Assembly (NCBI RefSeq): GCF_000003815.2
Contig: NC_049980.1
Span: 27,160,990 to 27,224,989 of the forward strand
DNA length: 64,000 bases
Source of the DNA: Branchiostoma floridae
Lineage: Eukaryota > Chordata > Leptocardii > Amphioxiformes > Branchiostomatidae
Direction: 5' to 3'
Notes under the pieces: generated by a model
Databases searched by the model: none
What the model saw: only the letters and a program-made list of their open reading frames with translations
What the model was told of the DNA's origin: nothing
Shown here: piece after piece, positions 12,391-64,000 of the stretch
How the letters are laid out: each line of letters opens with the position of its first letter
How positions within the stretch are numbered: the first letter of the stretch is position 1
Made by a program: the position numbers and the translations under genes

Positions 12391-13930
12391 CCCGTTTTCC
12401 TCCAGCACATGGCCCAATAAGCGCGGTAAGGAAATGGTGGACATGCCTAGGAGACTTCCATATCAACCTCTGATCGAAGAGTTAAGTATTTTACACTAAT
12501 AATCTAGTAGAAGCATATGTTTGCAGGGATGATCATAAACTTTTTCTGATAATTTTGACACACTACCTTAAGGAACAACGGGGAAGCCAGAAAACATCTG
12601 CCTGGAGATTGCACTTACTCGTTTGAGATCGGGAACAACAATTAAGACAATGGAGACAAAAAGAGTTGGGCAAGTAACAGTCTTATTTCAGGAACAAAAA
12701 CAAATATTTAATGCACAACAGTGACTAACAACATTGTAGCAGTGAAATCTACGAGAACAGATGATATGATAACGAAGGGTTAACGTTAGTCAATGATAAA
12801 AAGCAATGCCATCCCAGTTCTGCTCGTTTTAAAGTCATGGATCCCTGTTTCTGTGTGCCTCCGATGAGTTTTTTTAAACCTCCTTGGTGTCTCCGTTCGT
12901 GATAGAACGTGTCCAGTATTTTGACAGAAAAATGTACTATTCAATATACATGTACTCGATGTTGTGAGATAAATTCAAAAGTTATATGAACTAAAACTAC
13001 TCTACTCTACTCTACTCAGCCCTGTAGCTAAAAGGGGCTTAAAAGAGGTTTAAAAGAGATAAAACCAACTTTTGTACATGTTGGGGTCCTAGGCCGTACA
13101 ATAAAAAGCCATAACACTAAATTGTTGTCTGGATGCGTACCTGATCTACAGGCCAACACAATGAAAAGCATCTGTATTTATATTGCTAGTTGCTGTGTAA
13201 CAAAGCAAAAGTCATAAAGCTGTCATGTGCTGTGTTAGACTAGGTAAAGGTCATTACCATTTTGCCTAATCTACGCAATGATAAATGTTATGACTTTCAT
13301 TTATCATGAATGGTGTGTGTTCAAGAAATGCATCACGAAATATGAAATACAGTTGCTTTTCATTTAACCATGACAATATATAGAAAGTTAGGATTGATAA
13401 TGTATAGAAATAACGTGAGATACTCATCAGTTAGGTTAATACATGAAAGTGTAAAAGTGTAAAACGTTGAACGAAAACAAAGGGAAATGTACCTAACAAT
13501 AAAGCATTGAAAAAGATAGAGGATCCTAACAACTACCTGCATCCACTATCATAAAATGCCACTATAACATAGACAAAAATCATTTTTCTAAGTGACGTAT
13601 TGATGTACGTGAATCTTATATCAGATCATGAGACCTGCTGGAATGTTGAAGCCCTTTAAGGCTTGGATAAATACACTGTCTTTAAGTCGTGCAAGCAACA
13701 ACTTGCAGGTTCTGGCCCTAACCAAGAAATATTGACGTAGGAATTGATATGAGTCTTTGCTTTGAAAACCTCAGAAGATGTCAACATTCTAACACGACAA
13801 ACGTTACGTCCAATTACGCGATAAAGTCGTGACGACCAGATTTCTGATTATTCTATTTCCATTTGCCGTATCTAACGCTATCGTATCTCTGACTAGACAT
13901 CGCTACAACACAGCTGGCAGAACCATGGTC
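12391..13930. other. Intergenic region between the BTB-Kelch gene and the orphan gene
   Basis: AT-rich, with no gene recognised. It contains a decayed short palindromic insertion at 12862-12886 with flanking GTGCCTC/GTGTCTC, and a small CTCTA run near 13004. Part of it must be the 3' UTR of the minus-strand gene ending at 13931. Confidence 0.5.
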
Positions 13931-23285: not shown

Positions 23286-23917
23286 GAGCAGCGCGGATAC
23301 ACCATTACATAATTTAGTTTCATTTTGAGTCAGGATTTAGACCTTCTTGATTTGATCTGCAAGGCAAGATCAGTGTCCCTACCTGCTACAATGGATGACC
23401 TAAATATACGTTAACTGGCAGTAGAAAACTATAGGCCTCCCCGTTGCTATGGAATTATCTTTTCCTTAGCAACGGTTGCTATAGAAACGAGCTACGCTCT
23501 TGCATTGATCAGAAAATGAAAACTCTACTTCCGATTGTGACTTTCACTAAGTATTATGTTATTTGCACAAGTATTACTCAAGTTATGCTGATTTTTAACT
23601 TTTGGGCATAACAGCATAATTTGCATAAATTTGCATAAAGACCCCTTGAACCATGATGTCCCACCTGGACCATAGAACAACATACCTTAAAATGATCAGA
23701 AGACATCAAGCTATCTTTCTATAGTATGATAGTGAACTAAATAAGTACGGGGTGGGCTACGAAGCGACATTTTTTCAGGTATCCAAGTCCTCTTGGATTA
23801 CTAACGTTACTAGTCTAGAACGTTTTCAACTCGTCTGGTAGAGAATAGTCAAAACGGACGACTGGTAAACGTTACACCAAGAAGGTTATACTAGTGTTCT
23901 AGTATCCCACTCCCGAA

Positions 23918-23949
23918 CAAGGGGGTTAAAAAATAATTAAACCTCCTTG
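23918..23949. repeat. Short palindromic insertion (CAAGGG...CCTCCTTG), 32 bp
   Basis: CAAGGGGGTTAAA pairs with TTTAA...CCTCCTTG-type sequence. The flanks CTCCCGAA and CACCTGAA agree at 6 of 8 positions, a possible decayed target duplication. Member of the family described at 28978. Confidence 0.5.
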
Positions 23950-24899
23950 CACCTGAAGTGGGGGTACCAGGCGACTACACCTTTACACAGCGCCAGTTTT
24001 TCACGCCTGGGTCACGGTGCCTAGGTATTGTTTGTCTGACCTGGCGACCCCACTGGTAATCATTCTGTCACTGTCAGTTGAAAAGAGGAGGTGAACAGAG
24101 TGAGAGAGACAGAGGATTACAGAGCTGGGTCCAGGACAAAAGAAAAGAGAAAATTTCGTTGTCACTGCCTGCCACGTCTGTATCCATCCTTTATGATTTA
24201 TCCCTGATAGTCTTCCAGCGACATCCGATAAGGACATGGGTTTATCCCCTGGTTACATCACACATGTACTTTTGATAATCATTCTTTTCACACTAGTGAT
24301 CATTTCCGCGACAGGTTGGATCATGATGAGAGGATGTGCGCCAGACCATGTCCCTAGCCTGGTATCCAGCCGTATTATAGCTCCCGAGTCTCTTCTGTCC
24401 TCTACGCAAGTATATATAAAATAATGTTATTGATAATTACTGTATCCTGTATTTGTCACATTTAACTGTTATATGCCTCCCCAACGATGCACACTTTCCC
24501 GAGCTAGGATGCGAATACTTCAGGCAGAGGTTGAGTCGCGGAGGTTTTAATAGTAGTCGGGATTCTTTACCGGCTCGCTTGTAAGAAAATATGGCTGCAT
24601 AGGTACATTAATTTGTTAACGTTCTTGGCTGGATGGAGCTGCATAATCTAGCCAAGAACGTTATACAATGTTCTCATCCAGACAGCTACTAAAGATCACT
24701 AAAGTATAATATTTTGCTTTCTTTCCAAAGGCTCGTATTGTTTTTCTGCTCCTCTTGCACATATACCAAGCCTGGTAGACCTCTCTCAGTAGAAAAGGGC
24801 CTTTTTCTGACAGCGTTATAATTCTTCTAGCCGTGCTCATCAATAACATTTGACAGAACCACCTAGGCGCCAATGAATCTCACCCCGTAGAAAATTCCA

Positions 24900-25300: not shown

Positions 25301-25882
25301 TAGACTGTAAATACTTTGACTTCCAAAATTGTGGAACAGCTCGACTGTCGACAACAACACGTGTGAACCAGGGCCCCGATCACTGCTAAATGAAATCAGA
25401 TTTGCATGGTGTTTGTTTTTCCTGTGGTCATAAATCACTGCAGACAACACAGTCTGTGGTCAAAACACATTCACAGTACACATGTCTGACTTCAATGAAC
25501 AGACTAGCCAACCTCGAATTCTAACAATCTTGTAGACCATGATGTACAGACAACCCATTGTTTAAAATGTGTATTGGGTGTGTACCGTGTACCTGAACAT
25601 TTCAACAAGTCTCCAAAGAGTTGAACCTGAATGGCTGAATGGGACAATATTTGTCGACACTTTATCTTTATGAAAAATCCACTGCATGTCATTGTGTATA
25701 TGTGCATGTCCTGCATGTGTATATTGTTTATTTGTAGTGCCTAAGTGCGCTGAACCATCCACAAAGACCGATCAACTGAAACTTTGAGTTTGAGCGACGA
25801 AAACTGGAGCCAAAAACCTACGCCTCCTATTGGCTGAAACCTGGCTCTACTCGATACTCTACTCAAAAGCTGCGACCTGGTC

Positions 25883-25897
25883 CAAGGACGTTATATG
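25883..25897. repeat. Half-palindrome insertion with perfect 7-bp target duplication
   Basis: CAAGGACGTTATATG is flanked on both sides by CCTGGTC (25876-25882 and 25898-25904). It equals the left half of the 22-bp palindrome at 29997. Confidence 0.6.
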
Positions 25898-25904
25898 CCT
25901 GGTC

Positions 25905-27338
25905 GAAACGATCAACTCTAGATCACTCTACTCTATTCTTTATAGGACTTATAGGCCATGGCTTCCCCGATAGCCGGGATTATCTGATTTGAGAAAAACA
26001 AACAAAACAGAGGCTATTGATGAGCTAGCCTGTCATTGACCTCATGCTTGGAGAGCCAAGATGCCAGACTTATAATCACATCAAATGTGTCTAAATGTGT
26101 TAATAACTTAATTCCTGAATTCAACCTCCTTGCTGAATTGTACACGGTTTAACTTTAACGGTTTAGCGATCAAATTGATTATCATACTGTCCTACCAGAA
26201 AACGGCACACACACACACACAAAAGGTCTGCTAAGCCCTTATTGGTCTTATTATATCGTTGGGACCGAAGCTGTGGAAGCCTGACTACCAGGCTACTTTA
26301 GCTCACAGATTAAAAAAAAAAAAACTAATATGATCTTAGCCACGGAAAATGGTCTGTCTGAAGGTGAACTGGTCACAGAGAACAACGCACGTGAAAAACA
26401 TCAGAGAGAACAGACATGTGAAAACAACAGGCTGACATGAATAATCTCAACGCAGCGCTTGACCCAGAAGCATCGGAGCGAATGATGAACTCATTTATCT
26501 TTGACACCATAAAGACAAACATGACTATTACAATGAACTAATGATCTGATGAAACACAACAAATAACTCATATAAAAAAGAAAACATATTTCTGTACCTC
26601 AATATGCGGTCACCACTCTCGACGTCTTCACAATTCGGCCAAGCAAAAATCACGGACTGACAAGTTGGTTACTCAACACCATTCATATGCATAGATTCTT
26701 CATCCATCTGTCACCTCGCTGAAGTAAGGGATCTGTTCTTGTCTTTGTCACCAAAGTTCCGGCGATTTTCAGCACGATGTATCTCCCCTGACTGGTAGTC
26801 GTGTTTGATTCGGAAGTCCCCTCTCAAACTTTCCCACCAGCGAGCCGACCGTCCCACGCCCACACGGTGTGTACCTCCTCTCCAGACGCTGTGTGGGTGG
26901 ATCACATACTCAAATCACCGCGTTCTTCTGCCTTCTCGTGTGTACTTCGGTAAATGAAACCAGTTGACCTTTGCCCTCTTCATCAATTCATCAAGATTTT
27001 GACACGTCACGGCTTCCCGCTGGCAGATTCTTTAATTCTCAAGGGAACGTTCTATTTACTGTGCTTTCACTTTTTCTGAAGTACTAGTACTATTCATATT
27101 ATGTACAGTGTAATATAACATTATAGCTAGACACCTTATCAAACAATATTGCACCTAGATTTGTTTTCGCATATAGCTTTCCAAAGTGGGACATTTTATA
27201 CCAACATAAAAAAAAACTGGCCAGAAAAAAAAAATGACCTAATATAATACAAAAAGTGACAAACAAAACGTTAAATGCGGGGATCGTAGGATTTGGCCAA
27301 AAAATGGGAGCCAGCCCATGCTTTAAGTGTTTGTAATG
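25905..27338. other. Intergenic, no gene recognised
   Basis: Contains a short CA run (26205-26221), an A run near 26312, and a relatively GC-rich part (26700-26900) whose minus strand is open for 64 codons and ends at a possible donor near 26715. No protein domain is visible. Confidence 0.4.
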
Positions 27339-28393: not shown

Positions 28394-31300
28394 CTAAGTC
28401 TTTGTTGTTCTTGCAGTTGCTTGCGCTGACGGCCTTGACATTCCCGGAACTTGAGATCTGAAAAAAGACAAAGGATGTAGTACTAGTGTACACAACTGTA
28501 AATCTTTACATAAAGTAGAATCTTGCAGGTCAAAAAGAGATCATGATGAATCATGAATGCCACAGATATTCCCATCAGCATTATAATGCAAGTGACCATC
28601 TCTACATAAAGCTAAGGGCACAACCCGCCGTATGTGCAATTTGTCCGTACATTTTTTTGGGAGGCCGCGTCCGCCACGTATTTCTGAAAACGTTCAGGCT
28701 GTACAGGGCAGGCGCGTCGCCTGTACTGGCACGTACGGGGGCAAATCCGCAGCCCGATGGCACCAAAAATTTTTGCCTGCACGTAAAGTTCTACGGCGTG
28801 TCTGCATGCTCCAAAATCCATCAGATTCCCTACGAGTTCGTCACTTACAAAAGCTCCTTACACTTACGGATCCCAAAAGATTGCCCATGTTTTCACACGT
28901 AGACAGCACGTATTTGCACGTACGGCGGGTTGTGCCCTAGTCCAGTCAACTATGTCTCTGTTGTCACTTTGTCAATCCAAGGAGGTTAAAAAGATTTTTT
29001 TTAACCTCCTTGGTCAATCATATTGAATAATGTATGTACCATTGGAAAGCTAATTCATTGTAGCCTGGGTAACATCTGATTTCTACTGGGGCTCCTTACA
29101 CTCACTGCCCTACAAAATATTTTTCGGGGCAGCAAGTGTAAGGACAGAATGATCAATACGACGATAGCGGTCACTTAAATAGGAAGAGGAGCCCCTGTAG
29201 AAATCAGATGGTACTCAGGCTAAATTCATTGCCTCCTACAATGGTGTCCAAATTGACAATGCATTTGTGGGCCAAGCATACGGCTGCAAAACAAAAGAGC
29301 CAAAAGTCCCCTGCCAACACTGTCTGAATGGGCATGGAGTTTCGGCACTGAGTTTTGGCCATTCACATCTTCTCAACCAGAACATATGTCATGGTAGTGA
29401 TGGTACTCATGGATTCTTGTGTATTTTTCACGCAAGTGCTATGTCCACCAAACAAAATAAACCTTATATTGAATCTAACACAATGCACATTCTACCATAA
29501 GTTATATTTGTCTGTAAAATACATGAATAAATGCATACAAATAAAACAATCTCACCTTGCTGTAGACTGTCCAGTGGGTTTCTTCTTGGGTTGAGACTTA
29601 GACCTGAAATGGTAAGAAAGGGAAATGAGCAATATGAAATTTACTAAAATGCCTTAGATACAATTGTAGATCTTTTCTTGAAAGTTTGAGACAAGCAAAG
29701 TTGTTGTAAAATGACTGACAGTCGATGATTTCACCAACTTCATTATCACTTTGATTTTATCAATCTACCAGTAATATTTTTTGCTACTACAGAAGTTAAA
29801 TACATGTAATTGTTGTTGATTACGTTACCAAAGATGGGAAAAAGTTCCTAGCCAAAGTAAGGGGCTATACTATACTAAATTATAACTGATGGTCAGAACT
29901 CTAGCATCTCAGCAGGTACAAAACCTGGTCAACAGTCTTTCCCAAGACTGCAAGCTGGGTTCCTCTATCCCTGCCTGGTATGTGTATTGGTAGACCCAAG
30001 GACGTTATAACGTCCTTGGTAGACCCTAGCAACAGTCTGGCTTCCAGGTGCATTGGCTGGAAGCCCCTCTTTCTTAGTGTGACAATGGGGTCAAATCAGC
30101 ATCAAAATATCCATTTATCTTTCATTCATAGCATCAGCCTTTGTTGACTTTCAACTCTTTTTCTTTACCACTCTTTTTCTATCCTTCAATGAGATCAGGA
30201 TTTGCATGATAAAGAGATCAAACCAGCATTAAAATGACCAAGGAGGTCTTTTTAACCTCCTTGTAATGGTCAATTTATCTTTAATACAAATTATTAGCCT
30301 TTGTTCATTGACACTTTGTTCTCAGACCACTTTCTATTATTAAGAAAGATCAGCTTTTGTTTGATAATGCATTCATCTTTGATTAAAACAAATTTACTAC
30401 AGTTGCCTTCTAGCTCTTTTTTGTCAGGTCACTTGCTGTCTTTTAGCAACATCAGAGGGTGCATGACAATTGAAACAACTAGGGAGTAGAAACAGAGAGA
30501 AACAATAACCCGACTCCCAGGGTTCGAAACCACACCGAACACGGGCAACCGGCTCACAAATCCAACATGCAAACCACAACGCCGAAAGCTCAGAGCTGTT
30601 GGTGTGGTCAGTTTGGCCTTGGTTTGGCAGCGCTTGAACCCCACTGTTACACAATGTATTCCTATGGGCTTCTTTTTAAGTATCCCTGCTTGATGTTAAT
30701 TAGTCAATGATGACTCCATCTTACTCCAATGGGCCATTCATCTCTTTAGATAGCTCTTTGTCTCAGGTCACTTGCTATCTATGAACAAAGGTTCAAACAT
30801 CAAAGGGTGCATGACAATGTACCCCTATGGGCTTCTTTTTTATCATCCCTGCTTGATGTTAATGATCACCACCATCTTGCTCAATTCATCTCAATTCTTC
30901 TCATTTAAATCTTCTGGAACCCAGACTGTTGCCAGGGCCAACAAGACCCATGACTCCCATACATTTTTTTTTTCATTTTTGTTGTAAAATATGTCCTTTT
31001 AAACATACTAATATACCTTTTCAACTGTTTCATATTGTGAAGTTCAGATTTTTAGACAGAAGCCAGAGAAGGGGTAAGATTTTGTCTGATGTCCCAACAA
31101 GCTACTGTAAGTGCAGAAATGTTGGCGGTAGTTTTATGTTTGCAATGTTCACGGTGGCCACTTTACCGAGAACTTAAAACTACTGCAAACATTTTTCCAT
31201 CATAGTATGTGACTCAGGGCTCTAGCCAGCGTCCGTTTTTCTGTCAATTGACGGAAATTTGCTGCATGTGACAGAAAATTTTTTAAACCAATCCGTCAAC

Positions 31301-38949: not shown

Positions 38950-41370
38950 AGACATCAGGAGACAAACTGTGTTAATTTGAATAACACATTTATAGAACAG
39001 TGCTGTAAGAAGTGTATACAGGGAACTAAGAGCGGAAAACGTGTTCGGGAGACCTCCTTGGGGAGACAAACTGTGTCAATTTGAAGGACACACATACATA
39101 AATATTTAGCGCCGTAAGAACTGTATGTAACGTTAGCTTAACTAATAGCGATAAACGTGTTTAGGAGCCAAACTATGTCAATTTGAATGGCGCACTTATA
39201 TAATAGCGCCGTAAGAACTGTATGTAGCTAACAAATAGCGAGAAACGTGTTCAGGAGACAAAATGTGTCACTTTGAATGACACATTTATAGAACAGCGAT
39301 GTTAGACCTGTATATAGCTATTAAGTAATCGCGGAAAACGTATTCAAGTGTCAAACTGTGCCAATTTGAATGACACACTTATAGAACAAAGCTAAAAGAA
39401 CTGTATATAGCTAACTAATAGCGGAAAACGTGTTCAGGATTCAAACTGTGTCAATTTGAATGACACACTTACATGATAGTGCCGTAAGAACTGTATATAG
39501 CTAACTAGGAGCGAAAATCATGTTCAGGAGACAAACTGTGCCAATTTGAATGACACAATGCATTATAGAATAGCGCTGTAAGAACTGTATATAGTTAACT
39601 TGAAGCGGAATGCGTGTTCAAATGTCAATGTGTGTCAATTTGAATGACACACTTGTAGACAGCGCCCAAAGAACTGTATATAGCAAACTAATAGCGAAAA
39701 CGTATTCAGGAGACAAACTGTGTCAATTTGAATGACACACTTATAGAACAAAGCTGAATGAACTGTATACAGCTAACTAATAGCGAAAAACGTGTTCAGG
39801 AGACAAACTGTGTCAATTTGAATGATGCATTCATAGAACAGCGCTGTAAAAAAACTGTATATATGTAACTTAAAGTGCAATGCGTGTTCAGGAGTCCAAC
39901 TGTGTCACTTTGAATATAGAACAAAGCTGAAAGAAATGTATATAGCTAATTAATAGCGAAAAACGTGTTCAGGAGTCCAACTGTGTCAATTTGAATGACA
40001 CACTTAAATAATGGTGCCGTAAGGATTGTATATAGCTAACTAATAGCGAAAAACGTGTTCAGGAGACAAACTGTGTCAATTTGAATGACGCAATGCATTA
40101 TAGAATAGCGCTGTAAGAACTGTATATAGGTAACTTAAAGCGGAATGCGTGTTCAAATGTCAAACTGTGTCAATTTGAATGACACACTTATAGAACAAAG
40201 CTAAAAGAACTGTATATAGCTCACTAATAGCGGAAAACGTGTTCAGGAGTCAAACTGTGTCAATTTGAATGACACACTTACATAATAGTGCCGTAAGAAC
40301 TGTATATAGCTAACTAATAGCGTAAACGTGTTCAGGAGACAAACTATGTCAATTTGAATGACACACTGACATAATAGCGCCGTAAGAACTGTGTATAGCT
40401 CACTAATAGCGAGAAACGTGTTCAGGAGACAAAATGTGTCACTTTGAATGACACATTTATAGGACAGCAATGTAAAACCTGTATATAGCTAAGAAATCGC
40501 GGAAAACGTATTCAGGTGTCAAACTGTGCCAATTTGAATGACACACTTGCAGAACAAAGCTGAATGAACTGTATATAGCTAACTAATAGCGAAAAAGGGT
40601 GTTCAGGAGACAAATTGTGTCAATTTGAATGATGCATTCATAGAACAGCGCTGTAAGAACTGTATATAGCTAACTTAAAGCGCAATGCGTGTTCAAATGT
40701 CAAACTGTGTCAATTTGAATGACACACTTGTAGAACAAAGCTAAAAGAACTGTATATAGTTAACTAATAGCGGAAAACGTGTTCAGGAGTCAAACTGTGT
40801 CAATTTGAATGACACACTTACATAATAGTGCCGTAAGAACTGTATATAGCTAACTAATAGCGAAAAACGTGTTCAGGAGTCAAACAGTGTCAATTTGAAT
40901 GACACACTTACATGATAGTGCCGTAAGAACTATATATAGCTAACTAGGAGCGAAAAACAAGTTCAGGAGACAAACTGTGTCAATTTGAATGACACAATGC
41001 ATTATAGAATAGCGCTGTAAGAACTGTATATAGTTAACTTAAAGCGGAATGCGTGTTCAAATGTCAAACTGTGTCAATTTGAATGACACACTTGTAGACA
41101 GCGCCCAAATAACTGTATATAACAAACTAATACCGAAAACGTATTCAGGAGACAAACTGTGTCAATTTGAATGACACACTTACAGGTAGCGCAATAAGAA
41201 ATGTACATAGCTAACTCATAGCGAAGTGTAACGTGTTCAGTTGACAAACTGTGTCAATTTGAATGACACACTAATATAATGGCGCCGTAAGAACTGTATA
41301 TAGAATGCGTGTTCAGAAGTCAAACTGTGTCAATATGAATGACACACTTACATAATAGCGCGGTTCAGGC
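38950..41370 (+). repeat. ~90-bp satellite, forward orientation, about 27 units
   Basis: Unit landmarks are AGGAGACAAACTGTGTCAAT, TTGAATGACACACTTA, TAGAACAGCGCTGTAAGAAC and TGTATATAGCTAACTAATAG, then CGAAAAACGTGTTC. A dyad TGTGTCA...TGACACA sits in nearly every unit. Units differ by 5-25 percent and show small indels. No coding potential. Confidence 0.93.
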
Positions 41371-61700: not shown

Positions 61701-64000
61701 AATTTTGAACTGATATTGGTTCATGTACGAGGGATAATGATTTGAGAAAAGGGCACCTCACCATGTGTGCAAATGTCCATGTGCATTTCAAAGAACCCAA
61801 CACACTTATTGAGAAGAATTATAGCTATAATGTTACCTCTACTAGCTATAGAAGAAAGTGTTATGCTTCACCTCAGTCTGAGCTAGGCTGATTTTGACCA
61901 TACTATATTATACAAACTCATCTAGCTATATTTTCAACATCACTATGAGATGAGAAGAGGCCAAACATGTATTAGAATAGGTCTAAAAAACATTGTACAC
62001 GTATAAGATTAGTATTAGAAGTCCTGTCATTGTGTGTGCTTCATTACAACTTTATATCTGTATGCCTGTACTATAGCCTGAAAGGGCATGGATGTACAAT
62101 TTAGGTATGGTTGTGGTTGCCTCTAGGAATGGTCGAGTCCATCCCAGAGTTGTTCTCCCACATCCGAGTGTCAGCGGACGTCCCTGCCTCCATGTCCCTG
62201 CTGCAGAACTTCCTCTCTCCGGTGGAGGACTCCTCCTATGATGTCAGAATGGGATTCAGGTACCTGTCACTCATAGAGCACAGTTGGTACTTTGTTGGAA
62301 AATATTAAACATGTAATCTTATGTTGAGCAAAAAAGAAAACAAGTCTTTTTATTTCAGCTTACTGTATTGCAGCCCTCTTCTGGTTCAAGTGACAATCAA
62401 TTCATCTTTAAACTCAAGAAGCATGTATTATTTTTCTAATAGGTAATGATTTTACAATGTAAGATATGCATTTAACTTCACAGTATACAATTAAGCTCCT
62501 GACTATTTGAAAATTAACTGGTAACAGGAGTGGACTGCTTCTAGGTTAGGATGCATACATGTATATGGATCCTAGGGTAGGTCTAAATTATAGTGATTGA
62601 TCCTATGACTGTGAATTATAATCCTACGATCGTGAATGATATTATAATGCTCGTATTTTGAATTTCTACTGAGTTTTATCTGAGTACTGACAGCCGATTT
62701 CTGCCCCAGCAAACAGGTTGGCCACCTGGCGCGAGGGTGGTTGAGTGACTCGTCCAGCCCCCTGGTGGCCAAGCTGAAATCTGCATACCTGCGAGCAAAC
62801 AGCAGCTCCAACAGTATTCCTCTTCAGGAGACAGTGGTGCTTACCATTGGGCAGTTGGGCAGGTGAGTTGGGGCACTTCTGTAGCAATCTTACAATATAT
62901 GAAAGGTTTATTTCAAGACAGTGTTTTTTCATGGGAAATAATGGTATGGCAAGGGTTTCTTGATTTGAGTTAAAGGTTCTTGGTTCAAATTCCTTGTGGG
63001 TCTCCATGTTGTGCCCTTGAGTAAGGCACTTATAATACTTCACCATTTTGCCTTACACGGAAATAGTAGCTTAATTTTGGGATGTCAAATTGGATGTAAA
63101 AAGGTTTCATATTTGAGGAGGGTATTGATAAGGTCTAGATTAAAGTTATTTCCTGGAGAGACAGATCACAGTGGAAGTATCTCTCACCAAGGAGGTCTTT
63201 CTTTAACCTCCTTGCTCTCACATATCCTACTAGTTGTACTAACTAGTTTTTGTTTTACCATGACCCTACTGGCATGTTTTTCCAGAATAGCTGAAGGTGA
63301 CTTGTTTGGTGTAGTGTTGATAAACCTGCTGATCAGTCTGGTGTCCCTGTCCCCTGTGCTGGCAGCTCTGGCCTACAGTGAGGTAGGCAACATTGGTTAA
63401 TCATTGTTTCATAGAGCGGCATTTCCTTATAAATGTGCAAAAGGAATGTATGCATGGAATGTATGTTTTTGACAAGTCTCAGAATGTAAGTTCAACAAGA
63501 AAAAACAGTTTTGTACTGGTACACCGCACTGGTACCCACCCCTATTTGAGACCTTTTTCTTGCTTCTTCAGATTCATGACATTACGAAGGTCAGGAAGAC
63601 AAACCTCACCTCCCTCCTCACCAAACAGAGGCCCATCATTTGTAAGGTAAGTAAAACTTTACATTTGTTCCTTATCCATTAATTGGTTTCTTTGTTTTAC
63701 TTTGTTTGCATTGCATATACACAGTTAACAAAATCAGCAGTAACCAACTTTGTACATGTACAAAACAATGGACCCCTGATCTTTTTTTCTCAGTACCATA
63801 ACCATATTTCTAAGGATGCGACTTTTTAGACATTGTCATTCATCATAATCTTTATTTTCTGATTAAGTAACAAATACTTTTTACCGGGGTACTATGAATA
63901 AAAATGATTGATGTGGATTAAAATGATGCTTATTTATTCAAATTTCTAGTGGTTGTCTGAAGTTCTCCATGACTCCCAGAGTTCTGGTGGCAGTTCTACA
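49747..64000 (+). CDS. ATR: Serine/threonine-protein kinase ATR, N-terminal 988 codons (24 exons, cut by window end)
   Basis: Coding exons: 49747-49811, 50224-50315, 50675-50869, 51412-51582, 52379-52562, 53223-53337, 53683-53810, 54112-54283, 54543-54713, 55781-55959, 56402-56528, 56982-57213, 58421-58488, 58815-58905, 59167-59261, 59603-59706, 60082-60180, 60814-60881, 61222-61320, 62127-62259, 62710-62862, 63286-63382, 63572-63646, 63950-64000+. Every junction is GT/AG and in phase. Similarity to vertebrate ATR runs along the chain: TIQKRGQVVS...CQLIDVLITDLNS, MLLQFIRHGVDN, YRHVPEGYEG, the Ser/Arg-rich linker with LSRRRSL, PWLLEDQNWLDL, VVLTIGQLGRIAEGDLF, KQRPIICKWLSEVLHDSQSS. This is the HEAT-repeat solenoid that binds ATRIP; the FAT and kinase domains lie beyond the window. 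ATR senses RPA-coated single-stranded DNA and phosphorylates CHK1. An untranslated exon upstream is implied by the acceptor (AG at 49744-49745). Confidence 0.96.
51613..51905 (+). repeat. Retroelement 3'-tail fragments (two copies) in ATR intron
   Basis: GTTTGTTTGAACCTTTGTTT then ATTCA occurs at 51616 and 51783. A related tail is at 60535-60610 and an inverted one (AATAAAGGTTCAAACAAAC) at 60752-60773. These look like 3' ends of one LINE or SINE family. Confidence 0.55.
51958..52048 (+). repeat. Retroelement fragment, copy 1
   Basis: GTCTGACCGTGTCCAAAACC, CAGTTGCTTGA, GTGTATCTTATTACCTGGAT and GTCTAACTT match 61014-61096 with about 85 percent identity over ~85 bp. Non-coding, probably from the 3' UTR of a LINE. 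Confidence 0.65.
54816..54950 (+). repeat. Dispersed repeat, copy 2 of the 372-515 family
   Basis: GAAGAGCTATTCTTCCG, TAGTGACAGGAAAGGCAGAT, ATGTACAGTATG and CAAGCACAACAAACAGTG-like landmarks in the same order as 372-515. Confidence 0.6.
54993..55643. mobile_element. Non-autonomous Tc1/mariner- or pogo-like element, 651 bp, TA target
   Basis: Left end CAGTCAAACCTGTCCTGAGC then AACCAC; right end GTGGTTGCTCGGACAGGTTT then CACTG. TA flanks both ends. Internal GGTGGTTGC / GTGGCTGC phrases repeat. No transposase frame is visible, so it is non-autonomous. Confidence 0.75.
57470..57740. repeat. Tandem duplication, ~146-bp period, in ATR intron 12
   Basis: CAGAAAAAATGGAAGCTGT, ACTCC(A/G)CGTTTC, AGCTTTTTGATTGG, a GTCGC block and ACGCACAG occur at 57473-57600 and again at 57621-57740. 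Possibly part of a larger insertion that continues to about 58030. Confidence 0.7.
57970..58030 (+). mobile_element. tRNA-like (Pol III A/B box) SINE-type fragment
   Basis: TGGCTCAGTGG fits the A-box consensus, and GGGATCGAATCC about 35 nt later fits the B box; a T run follows near 58047. The T-arm stem is poorly paired and no acceptor stem forms, so this is a SINE-like remnant or tRNA pseudogene. Confidence 0.45.
61014..61096 (+). repeat. Retroelement fragment, copy 2
   Basis: Second copy of the 51958-52048 sequence, same orientation, in the ATR intron after exon 60814-60881. Confidence 0.65.
61349..61586. mobile_element. Non-autonomous hAT-like element, 238 bp, 8-bp target duplication
   Basis: Termini TAGGGGTGGGTACCGGTAC and GTACCGCTACCCACCGTTA; CCTGCTAC flanks both ends (61341-61348 and 61587-61594). 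GGTACCCACCCCT at 63531-63543 looks like the end of another copy. In the ATR intron after exon 61222-61320. Confidence 0.8.
63188..63214. repeat. Short palindromic insertion, 27 bp, with perfect 7-bp target duplication
   Basis: CAAGGAGGTCTTTC / TTTAACCTCCTTG; CTCTCAC on both sides (63181-63187 and 63215-63221). In an ATR intron. Confidence 0.8.

Follow-up and report, generated by a model that had tools for sequence, protein, structure and literature searches.

Short palindromes of the lancelet genome are probable excision scars of P-superfamily transposons

The genome of the lancelet Branchiostoma floridae carries thousands of short palindromes with CAAGGA-type ends, which are very probably the repaired donor sites of excised P-superfamily transposons and not miniature mobile elements. 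The analysis covers a stretch of 64,000 nucleotides (C2:27160990-27224989, hereafter the window) and the 513-Mb genome in one assembly. In the proposed course of events, the insertion of a P-superfamily element would duplicate 7 bp of its target, and on excision the transposase would make a staggered cut about 17-21 nt inside each end. Both broken chromosome ends would then hold the duplication together with the outermost ~17-21 nt of the TIR, as the limit on retained length suggests. Cellular end-joining would presumably seal the gap, bluntly or at 1-2 nt of microhomology, after trimming of one or both ends, or with filler templated on the flank or on the end itself. The mobile units would be the long elements, those with a transposase gene measuring 8.4-8.7 kb and those without one about 1.2 kb, and the palindromes themselves would be inert.

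Palindromes in the window

The original prediction described three two-ended palindromes, starting at 28978, 29997 and 63188, as bracketed by 7-bp duplications, and re-reading of the sites shows these to be perfect. The first is a 35-bp scar (CAAGGAGGTTAAAAAG...TTAACCTCCTTG, 28978..29012) with GTCAATC on its left (28971..28977) and right (29013..29019). The second, of 22 bp, belongs to the CAAGGACGTT subfamily (29997-30018) and together with its GTAGACC duplications spans 29990..30025, and the third, of 27 bp (63188-63214), spans 63181..63221 with its CTCTCAC duplications. No strand is assigned to the two-ended sites. The supposed half copy at 25883 is a one-ended scar with 15 bp of the left end (25883-25897, plus strand) inside a perfect CCTGGTC duplication (25876..25904).

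The copies that had been considered decayed fared unequally. The one at 12862 is a probable one-ended scar with non-matching filler (12862-12886, minus strand; 12855..12893 with duplications) and keeps six of seven duplicated bases (GTGCCTC/GTGTCTC). The other two are decayed two-ended copies at 30239-30263 (30232..30270) and 23918-23949 (23911..23956), where four and three of the seven bases agree, respectively, and the latter duplication is not recognisable; therefore neither supplies evidence of duplication. Two sites come in addition to those predicted. One is a one-ended scar with 11 bp of the other, right end (26122-26132, minus strand) within perfect CTGAATT duplications (26115..26139), and the other, more doubtful, is a possible one-ended scar of 7 bp (39054-39060, minus strand) with GGGAGAC on both sides (39047..39067), which is short enough that it could have arisen by chance. 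The end CAAGGAGGTT occurs 22 times in the window when at most one mismatch is allowed, against a mean of 4.46 and a maximum of 11 in 100 shuffles.

Two other repeats lie close to the 28978 scar. Positions 28800-28938 are part of an unrelated repeat of ~139 bp that ends some 40 bp before the scar and has at least 40 other near-full-width matches at 83-89% identity (40 of 2,612 candidates were scored). At about 29061-29222 there is a long imperfect palindrome (TAGCCTGGGTAACATCTGATTTCTAC... and its reverse complement), the arms of which match each other and which looks like an ordinary MITE. No second allele of the 1.5 kb at 28800-30300 was present among the matches listed.

Genome-wide abundance and target duplications

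A genome-wide search with the pattern CAAGGANGTT-N(0-25)-AACNTCCTTG over the whole 513 Mb returned 2,163 exact palindromes of 20-45 bp, and the backward-pattern control none. Palindromes with a sister end, CAAGGAGCTT-N(0-30)-AAGCTCCTTG, number 564 in the genome, again with no match for the control. With the spacer of the first pattern set to N(21-50), that is for lengths of 41-70 bp, there are 264 matches and one control match, a count which overlaps the 2,163 at 41-45 bp and takes in tandem pairs; the 50 listed of these longer matches include some tandem or nested arrangements and some single palindromes of 41-54 bp. The copies are partly non-independent because some ride inside larger repeats.

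Target duplications were assessed in 53 distinct copies, namely 50 listed of the 2,163, all from the first 10.1 Mb of contig C1 and with one collapsed as a duplicate on account of identical flanks, together with four from the window. A perfect 7-bp duplication is present in 35 of the 53, compared with 2 of 2,756 pairings of left and right flanks taken from different copies (binomial P about 1e-96); if one mismatch is tolerated at 7 bp, the number rises to 46 of the 53. Perfect duplications of 8 bp occur in two copies (L002:1501 and L044:98), and none are perfect at 5, 6 or 9 bp. In this respect the original prediction holds, as the family is spread through the genome, its members have ends in common and the 7-bp duplications are genuine.

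The duplications of the 35 perfect scars begin with GT (8) or AT (9) and end with AC (14) or AG (9) in many cases. The symmetrised target motif derived from them is TTnGTnnnACnAA, which is palindromic by construction because both strands were counted. By its sequence the motif appears to lie near the GTANTAC of Galileo and may be regarded as P-like.

One-ended scars

Exact half-ends without a partner were examined for a repeat of the preceding 7-mer 4-45 nt inside. Such a repeat accompanies two of the four half-ends in the window and none of seven that come from 19 other loci (L006-L024); the control rate is 347 of 22,716 positions (1.5%), which gives a P of about 0.012 for the combined 2/11. 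With one mismatch allowed, the duplications are found at 3/4 half-ends in the window and 3/7 elsewhere, the controls giving about 10%. A broader scan of 252,119 bases yielded 31 places, 17 of them two-ended and with some sites found twice. With each of ten control motifs the scan returned 2-45 places, of which at most one was two-ended, and its one-ended class is therefore noisy. The one-ended scars support the excision reading, weakly when taken alone and not decisively.

Scar interiors and junction types

The middles of the palindromes are mostly unique junctions, and 45 different sequences are found among the 53 copies. The usual layout is a prefix of one end, sometimes followed by filler, and then the reversed prefix of the other end, and the joins are blunt, share 1-2 nt of microhomology or hold filler between the ends. 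As judged by eye, several scars (L033, L001, L069, L072, L074 and L075) hold copies of their own flank or their own end. The left flank and end are repeated inside the scar in L033, L001 (duplication 4/7) has an internal copy of the adjacent TTGCCTACAC, and a 16-nt end stands in tandem in two copies in L069, L072 and L074 and in three copies in L075; L074 and L075 are a duplicated locus with flanks in common.

Scars also occur within or next to other scars. L076 is nested, with an inner CAAGGAGCTT scar and its surrounding GATATAT duplication lying inside an outer GGTTAT scar, and L080 consists of two different scars in series, flanked by GATATAC, GATATAC and GGTATAC. A 46-bp double scar is present at six of the 50 places listed in the 41-70 bp search. 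The 60 bp on either side of it are nearly identical in four fetched copies and in a fifth, longer relative; it therefore travels within a larger repeat and is not a mobile unit. In L108-L112 a scar lies within a dispersed repeat, where three CTAA(A/G)AG copies surround one one-ended and one two-ended scar, which is serial use of one target. For the repeat-borne scar L066/L070 no empty site was seen, as the four fetched relatives cease to align at the scar. The 21-nt long-end pattern gave no convergent pair of ends at element distance among 19 matches; the isolated matches that were fetched are mostly scars with tandem or filler copies, and one of them, L073, is a one-ended scar with its duplication.

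The original prediction took elements of 22-35 bp as the moving units. If the palindromes of 20-40 bp were self-standing ultra-short MITEs that a P-type transposase mobilised in trans, by cut-and-paste or by copying, both ends and the target duplications would be present, as they are, and some forms do recur: CAAGGAGCTTTTATCTGATAAAAGCTCCTTG or its reverse complement accounts for 7 of the 50 listed CAAGGAGCTT scars. A MITE family would, however, show many copies with one defined internal sequence and length, whereas 45 of the 53 copies and 35 of the 50 listed CAAGGAGCTT scars are distinct in sequence. Their lengths are spread up to a limit near twice the cut distance, forms without most of one end exist, albeit with weak statistics, and the one much-repeated form that was checked has shared flanks and so hitch-hikes in a larger repeat. 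P transposase requires internal binding sites, which the palindromes would lack. Self-standing mobility of the palindromes is accordingly judged very unlikely, and the reading of the short elements as the moving units is not supported.

Retained end length and cut position

The parent TIRs exceed what the scars keep, and the position of the cut can therefore be estimated. In 28 of the 50 listed CAAGGAGCTT scars (of 564), two prefixes of the 31-bp TIR are joined exactly and overlap by 0-2 nt. The commonest retained length is 14-17 nt (61 of 100 ends) and the maximum is 18 of the 31 nt; 3 of 100 ends reach 19, in each case through bases shared as microhomology. The longest of these scars is 39 bp, though 50 were permitted. 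In the remaining 22 the middles do not match, filler is present or the ends are those of sister subfamilies, and these scars may come in part from subfamilies with other TIRs.

In the family with a 39-bp TIR, 15 scars were found with 34-64 bp allowed, 12 of them at 42 bp or less. No more than 21 nt per side are kept in 13 of the 15, although only the upper limit is informative here because the pattern required 17 nt per side, and 13 of the 15 are reproduced exactly as joins when one of two TIR variants is assumed. The two exceptions beyond 21 nt measure 46 bp (24 + 22 nt) and 54 bp (26 + 28 nt, with shared bases). The ends kept by scars thus stop mostly at about 17-21 of 31-39 bp, which also speaks against the palindromes as moving units, and a staggered cut ~18-21 nt inside the ends would set the limit.

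Internal deletion of elements still in place, by aborted gap repair or through a hairpin, would yield the same end-to-end layout without excision, and P elements are known for internal deletions. Breakpoints would then be predicted anywhere in the element, yet the retained ends stop at ~18 nt in the 50 CAAGGAGCTT scars and at 21 nt in 13 of the 15 scars of the other family, in both cases inside TIRs of 31-39 bp. This origin is considered extremely unlikely, in favor of end-joining after excision.

Parent elements and their transposase

The genome does contain longer elements of the kind that had been proposed as something to look for, with the same ends and a transposase. PF21787, the profile of the P-element RNase H domain, matched the genome at three loci, two of which were later placed in elements (E 2e-20 and 3e-19), and a search with PF21789 gave five loci, three of them the PF21787 genes. 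Two of the five P-like loci sit within complete elements with CAAGGAGCTT/CAAGGAGGTT ends. One is 8,684 bp long (C11:17071456-17080139), starts with CAAGGAGGTTGAATAAGGG and has a perfect 38-bp TIR with AAGTCAT on both sides, and the other, of 8,442 bp (C19:10308832-10317273), starts with CAAGGAGCTTTTATCAGG and has a perfect 31-bp TIR with CTCTAAC on both sides. RNase H domains were recovered in both elements (PF21787 at E 7e-22 and 6e-21, PF21789 at E 3e-8 and 3e-7), and the HTH model PF12017 matched one below threshold (E 0.035) and the other not at all. The transposase RNase H domains, the TIRs starting with CA and the 7-bp TSDs would place both elements in the P superfamily.

An N-terminal THAP domain is common in P/THAP9 proteins. 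None was detected in the overlapping sets of two, nine and three open frames that were scanned, where RAG1_imp_bd was found instead, and a phmmer search of the PDB with one transposase frame gave no match at E 0.001. Each parent has a further open frame in convergent orientation, with a length of at least 218 aa (L058:2432-3085, minus strand; L059:2-655, plus strand), which is 58% identical between the two and has no Pfam match.

The left 244 bp of the C11 element have at least 40 matches in the genome, and non-autonomous elements of ~1.2 kb have the same ends as the parents. Five of six such end pairs have perfect 7-bp duplications and three a perfect 39-bp TIR; the right end of the sixth pair lies outside the fetched slice, and the slices L098 and L099 showed one end each. 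The elements found, or relatives of them, would have produced the scars. No parent of the window subfamilies (GGTTAAAAAG, GACGTTATA and GGTTAAAGAAA) was present among the elements recovered; the parents found agree with these subfamilies in CAAGGA, in the layout of the TIRs and in a TSD of 7 bp, and diverge from them after base 6-10. No CAAGG ends were seen in the flanks read near the P-like loci C2:9177592 and C11:17372859, nor were such ends seen within about 1.5 kb around the matches at C6:14991204, and the P-like RNase H exons at these three loci are perhaps host genes or members of other P families.

The transposase tied to the CAAGGA ends is that of the P superfamily, and the link to Dada that had been suggested from the size of the duplication is not supported; a duplication of 6-7 bp is not decisive by itself, and Dada elements have target specificity for small RNA genes. 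The Dada and MITE readings are rejected on two grounds, the junction-like middles and the P transposase encoded by the parents. More broadly, a different superfamily (Dada, hAT, MuDR or another) that happens to share CAAGGA ends could have left the scars, with the P-type elements coincidental, and this would fit both with the parent of the window subfamilies not having been located and with footprints being left by several superfamilies, as described in the accessible text of PMC4423477. However, the two elements that came from the P-domain search have CAAGGASSTT ends with 7-bp TSDs, the target motif is P-like, and long terminal retention is called peculiar to P cleavage in the accessible text of PMC10983969 and PMC2895639. 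The probability of such a coincidence is put as exceedingly low, and an origin of the scars from P-superfamily excision remains strongly preferred.

A RAG1-N-terminal-like module in the parent elements

In both parents the P RNase H domain is preceded by a RAG1-N-terminal-like module (PF12560). The C19 element (L054/L081, C19:10310191-10312491) has PF12560 at 10310278-10310538 and PF21787 at 10311853-10312299. The two domains share one open frame of 767 aa, each having been assigned to a frame of that size, with the slices in register. The module of the C11 element (L084, C11:17078502-17079008) was matched at E 2e-10, with solved RAG1 chains matched at 1e-6, and stands in a different frame from the RNase H domain, across a tandem repeat. 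The C11 and C19 modules share 61% identity over 69 residues. Six other PF12560 (RAG1_imp_bd) matches are located at C11:3636058, C17:8027987, C9:2712553, C5:7237811, C9:2728381 and C9:21223243, two of them in open frames of 1,060 and 937 aa.

A module of this kind in a transposon protein has parallels in N-RAG-TP of Aplysia and in the Chapa domain, as presented in the accessible text of PMC8355894 and PMC4411706, from which the lancelet elements differ in that the module stands ahead of an RNase H domain of the P superfamily. According to the available part of PMC4411706, RING and Chapa are encoded in no known TEs beyond the Transib superfamily (with Chapaev). The module-bearing P-type genes may explain N-RAG-TP.

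Discussion

The lancelet scars correspond closely to the junctions left by P excision in Drosophila melanogaster, where the available portion of the published account (PMC2895639, Table 1) gives 17-nt 3′ tails and the same junction classes; the excerpted text of PMC10983969 likewise gives 17 nt for the staggered cut made by the P transposase of the fly. In both systems the target duplication is present on both sides with part of each terminal repeat, up to ~17 nt in the fly, and there are microhomology and blunt joins, one-sided losses and templated insertions (PMC2895639, as excerpted). The fly junctions were induced at one locus with an 8-bp duplication, whereas the lancelet scars are natural, number in the thousands and have 7-bp duplications, and their retained-length limits of 18 and 21 nt are slightly longer than the 17 nt of the fly.

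Galileo, a P-superfamily transposon of Drosophila, is described in the text at hand as having a 7-bp TSD, a few 8-bp ones and GTANTAC in a palindromic target motif (PMC4168063). The 8-bp duplications in two of the 53 lancelet scars resemble those few Galileo copies, while the outer target bases differ, being AA/TT in Galileo and TT/AA in the lancelet scars; the word "footprint" is absent from the text of that paper. The TIRs of Galileo, as characterized in the accessible part of PMC3573991, are long, internally repetitive and foldback-like, in contrast to the perfect 31-39 bp of the lancelet parents. Zebrafish THAP9 and Pdre2 likewise represent a P-type transposase in a chordate, but Pdre2 differs in its 13-bp TIR (CATACCTGTCAAC) and 8-bp duplication (PMC10983969, in the part available).

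Excision sites in rice, like the lancelet scars, are natural and were surveyed genome-wide, and a comparison of two species gave 94 putative excision events, mostly with deletions and filler; the study, in its accessible text, names Mariner, Harbinger, Mutator and CACTA and describes no palindromic scar family (PMC4423477). Among the titles and abstract openings listed for open-licence papers, none describes P-type scars across a genome or this family in the lancelet. Excision footprints as such are already known; within the papers so covered, what appears new is a genome with thousands of P-type scars.

Excision traces are usually too small to recognise. After P-type cleavage ~20 nt of each end remain together with the duplication, so excisions would become countable, datable by decay and, where nested, orderable. 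The wider interpretation is held with about even confidence: the genome would contain ~2,700 recognisable germline break repairs (a number that would fall with repeat-borne scars collapsed and rise with decayed ones included) left by one P lineage that cuts ~18-21 nt in and carries a RAG1 module. Since this lineage joins a RAG1-N-terminal-like module to a P transposase, it could be N-RAG-TP and a possible donor or recipient in the history of the RAG1 N-terminus. Such scars could be filed by annotators as "ultra-short MITEs", which should serve as a warning. Thousands of end-joinings at a known break would form a natural data set of germline repair in a non-model chordate, covering microhomology and templated insertion. 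The scars would also allow a test of whether the long stagger cut by the fly P transposase was already a property of the ancestral enzyme of the superfamily.
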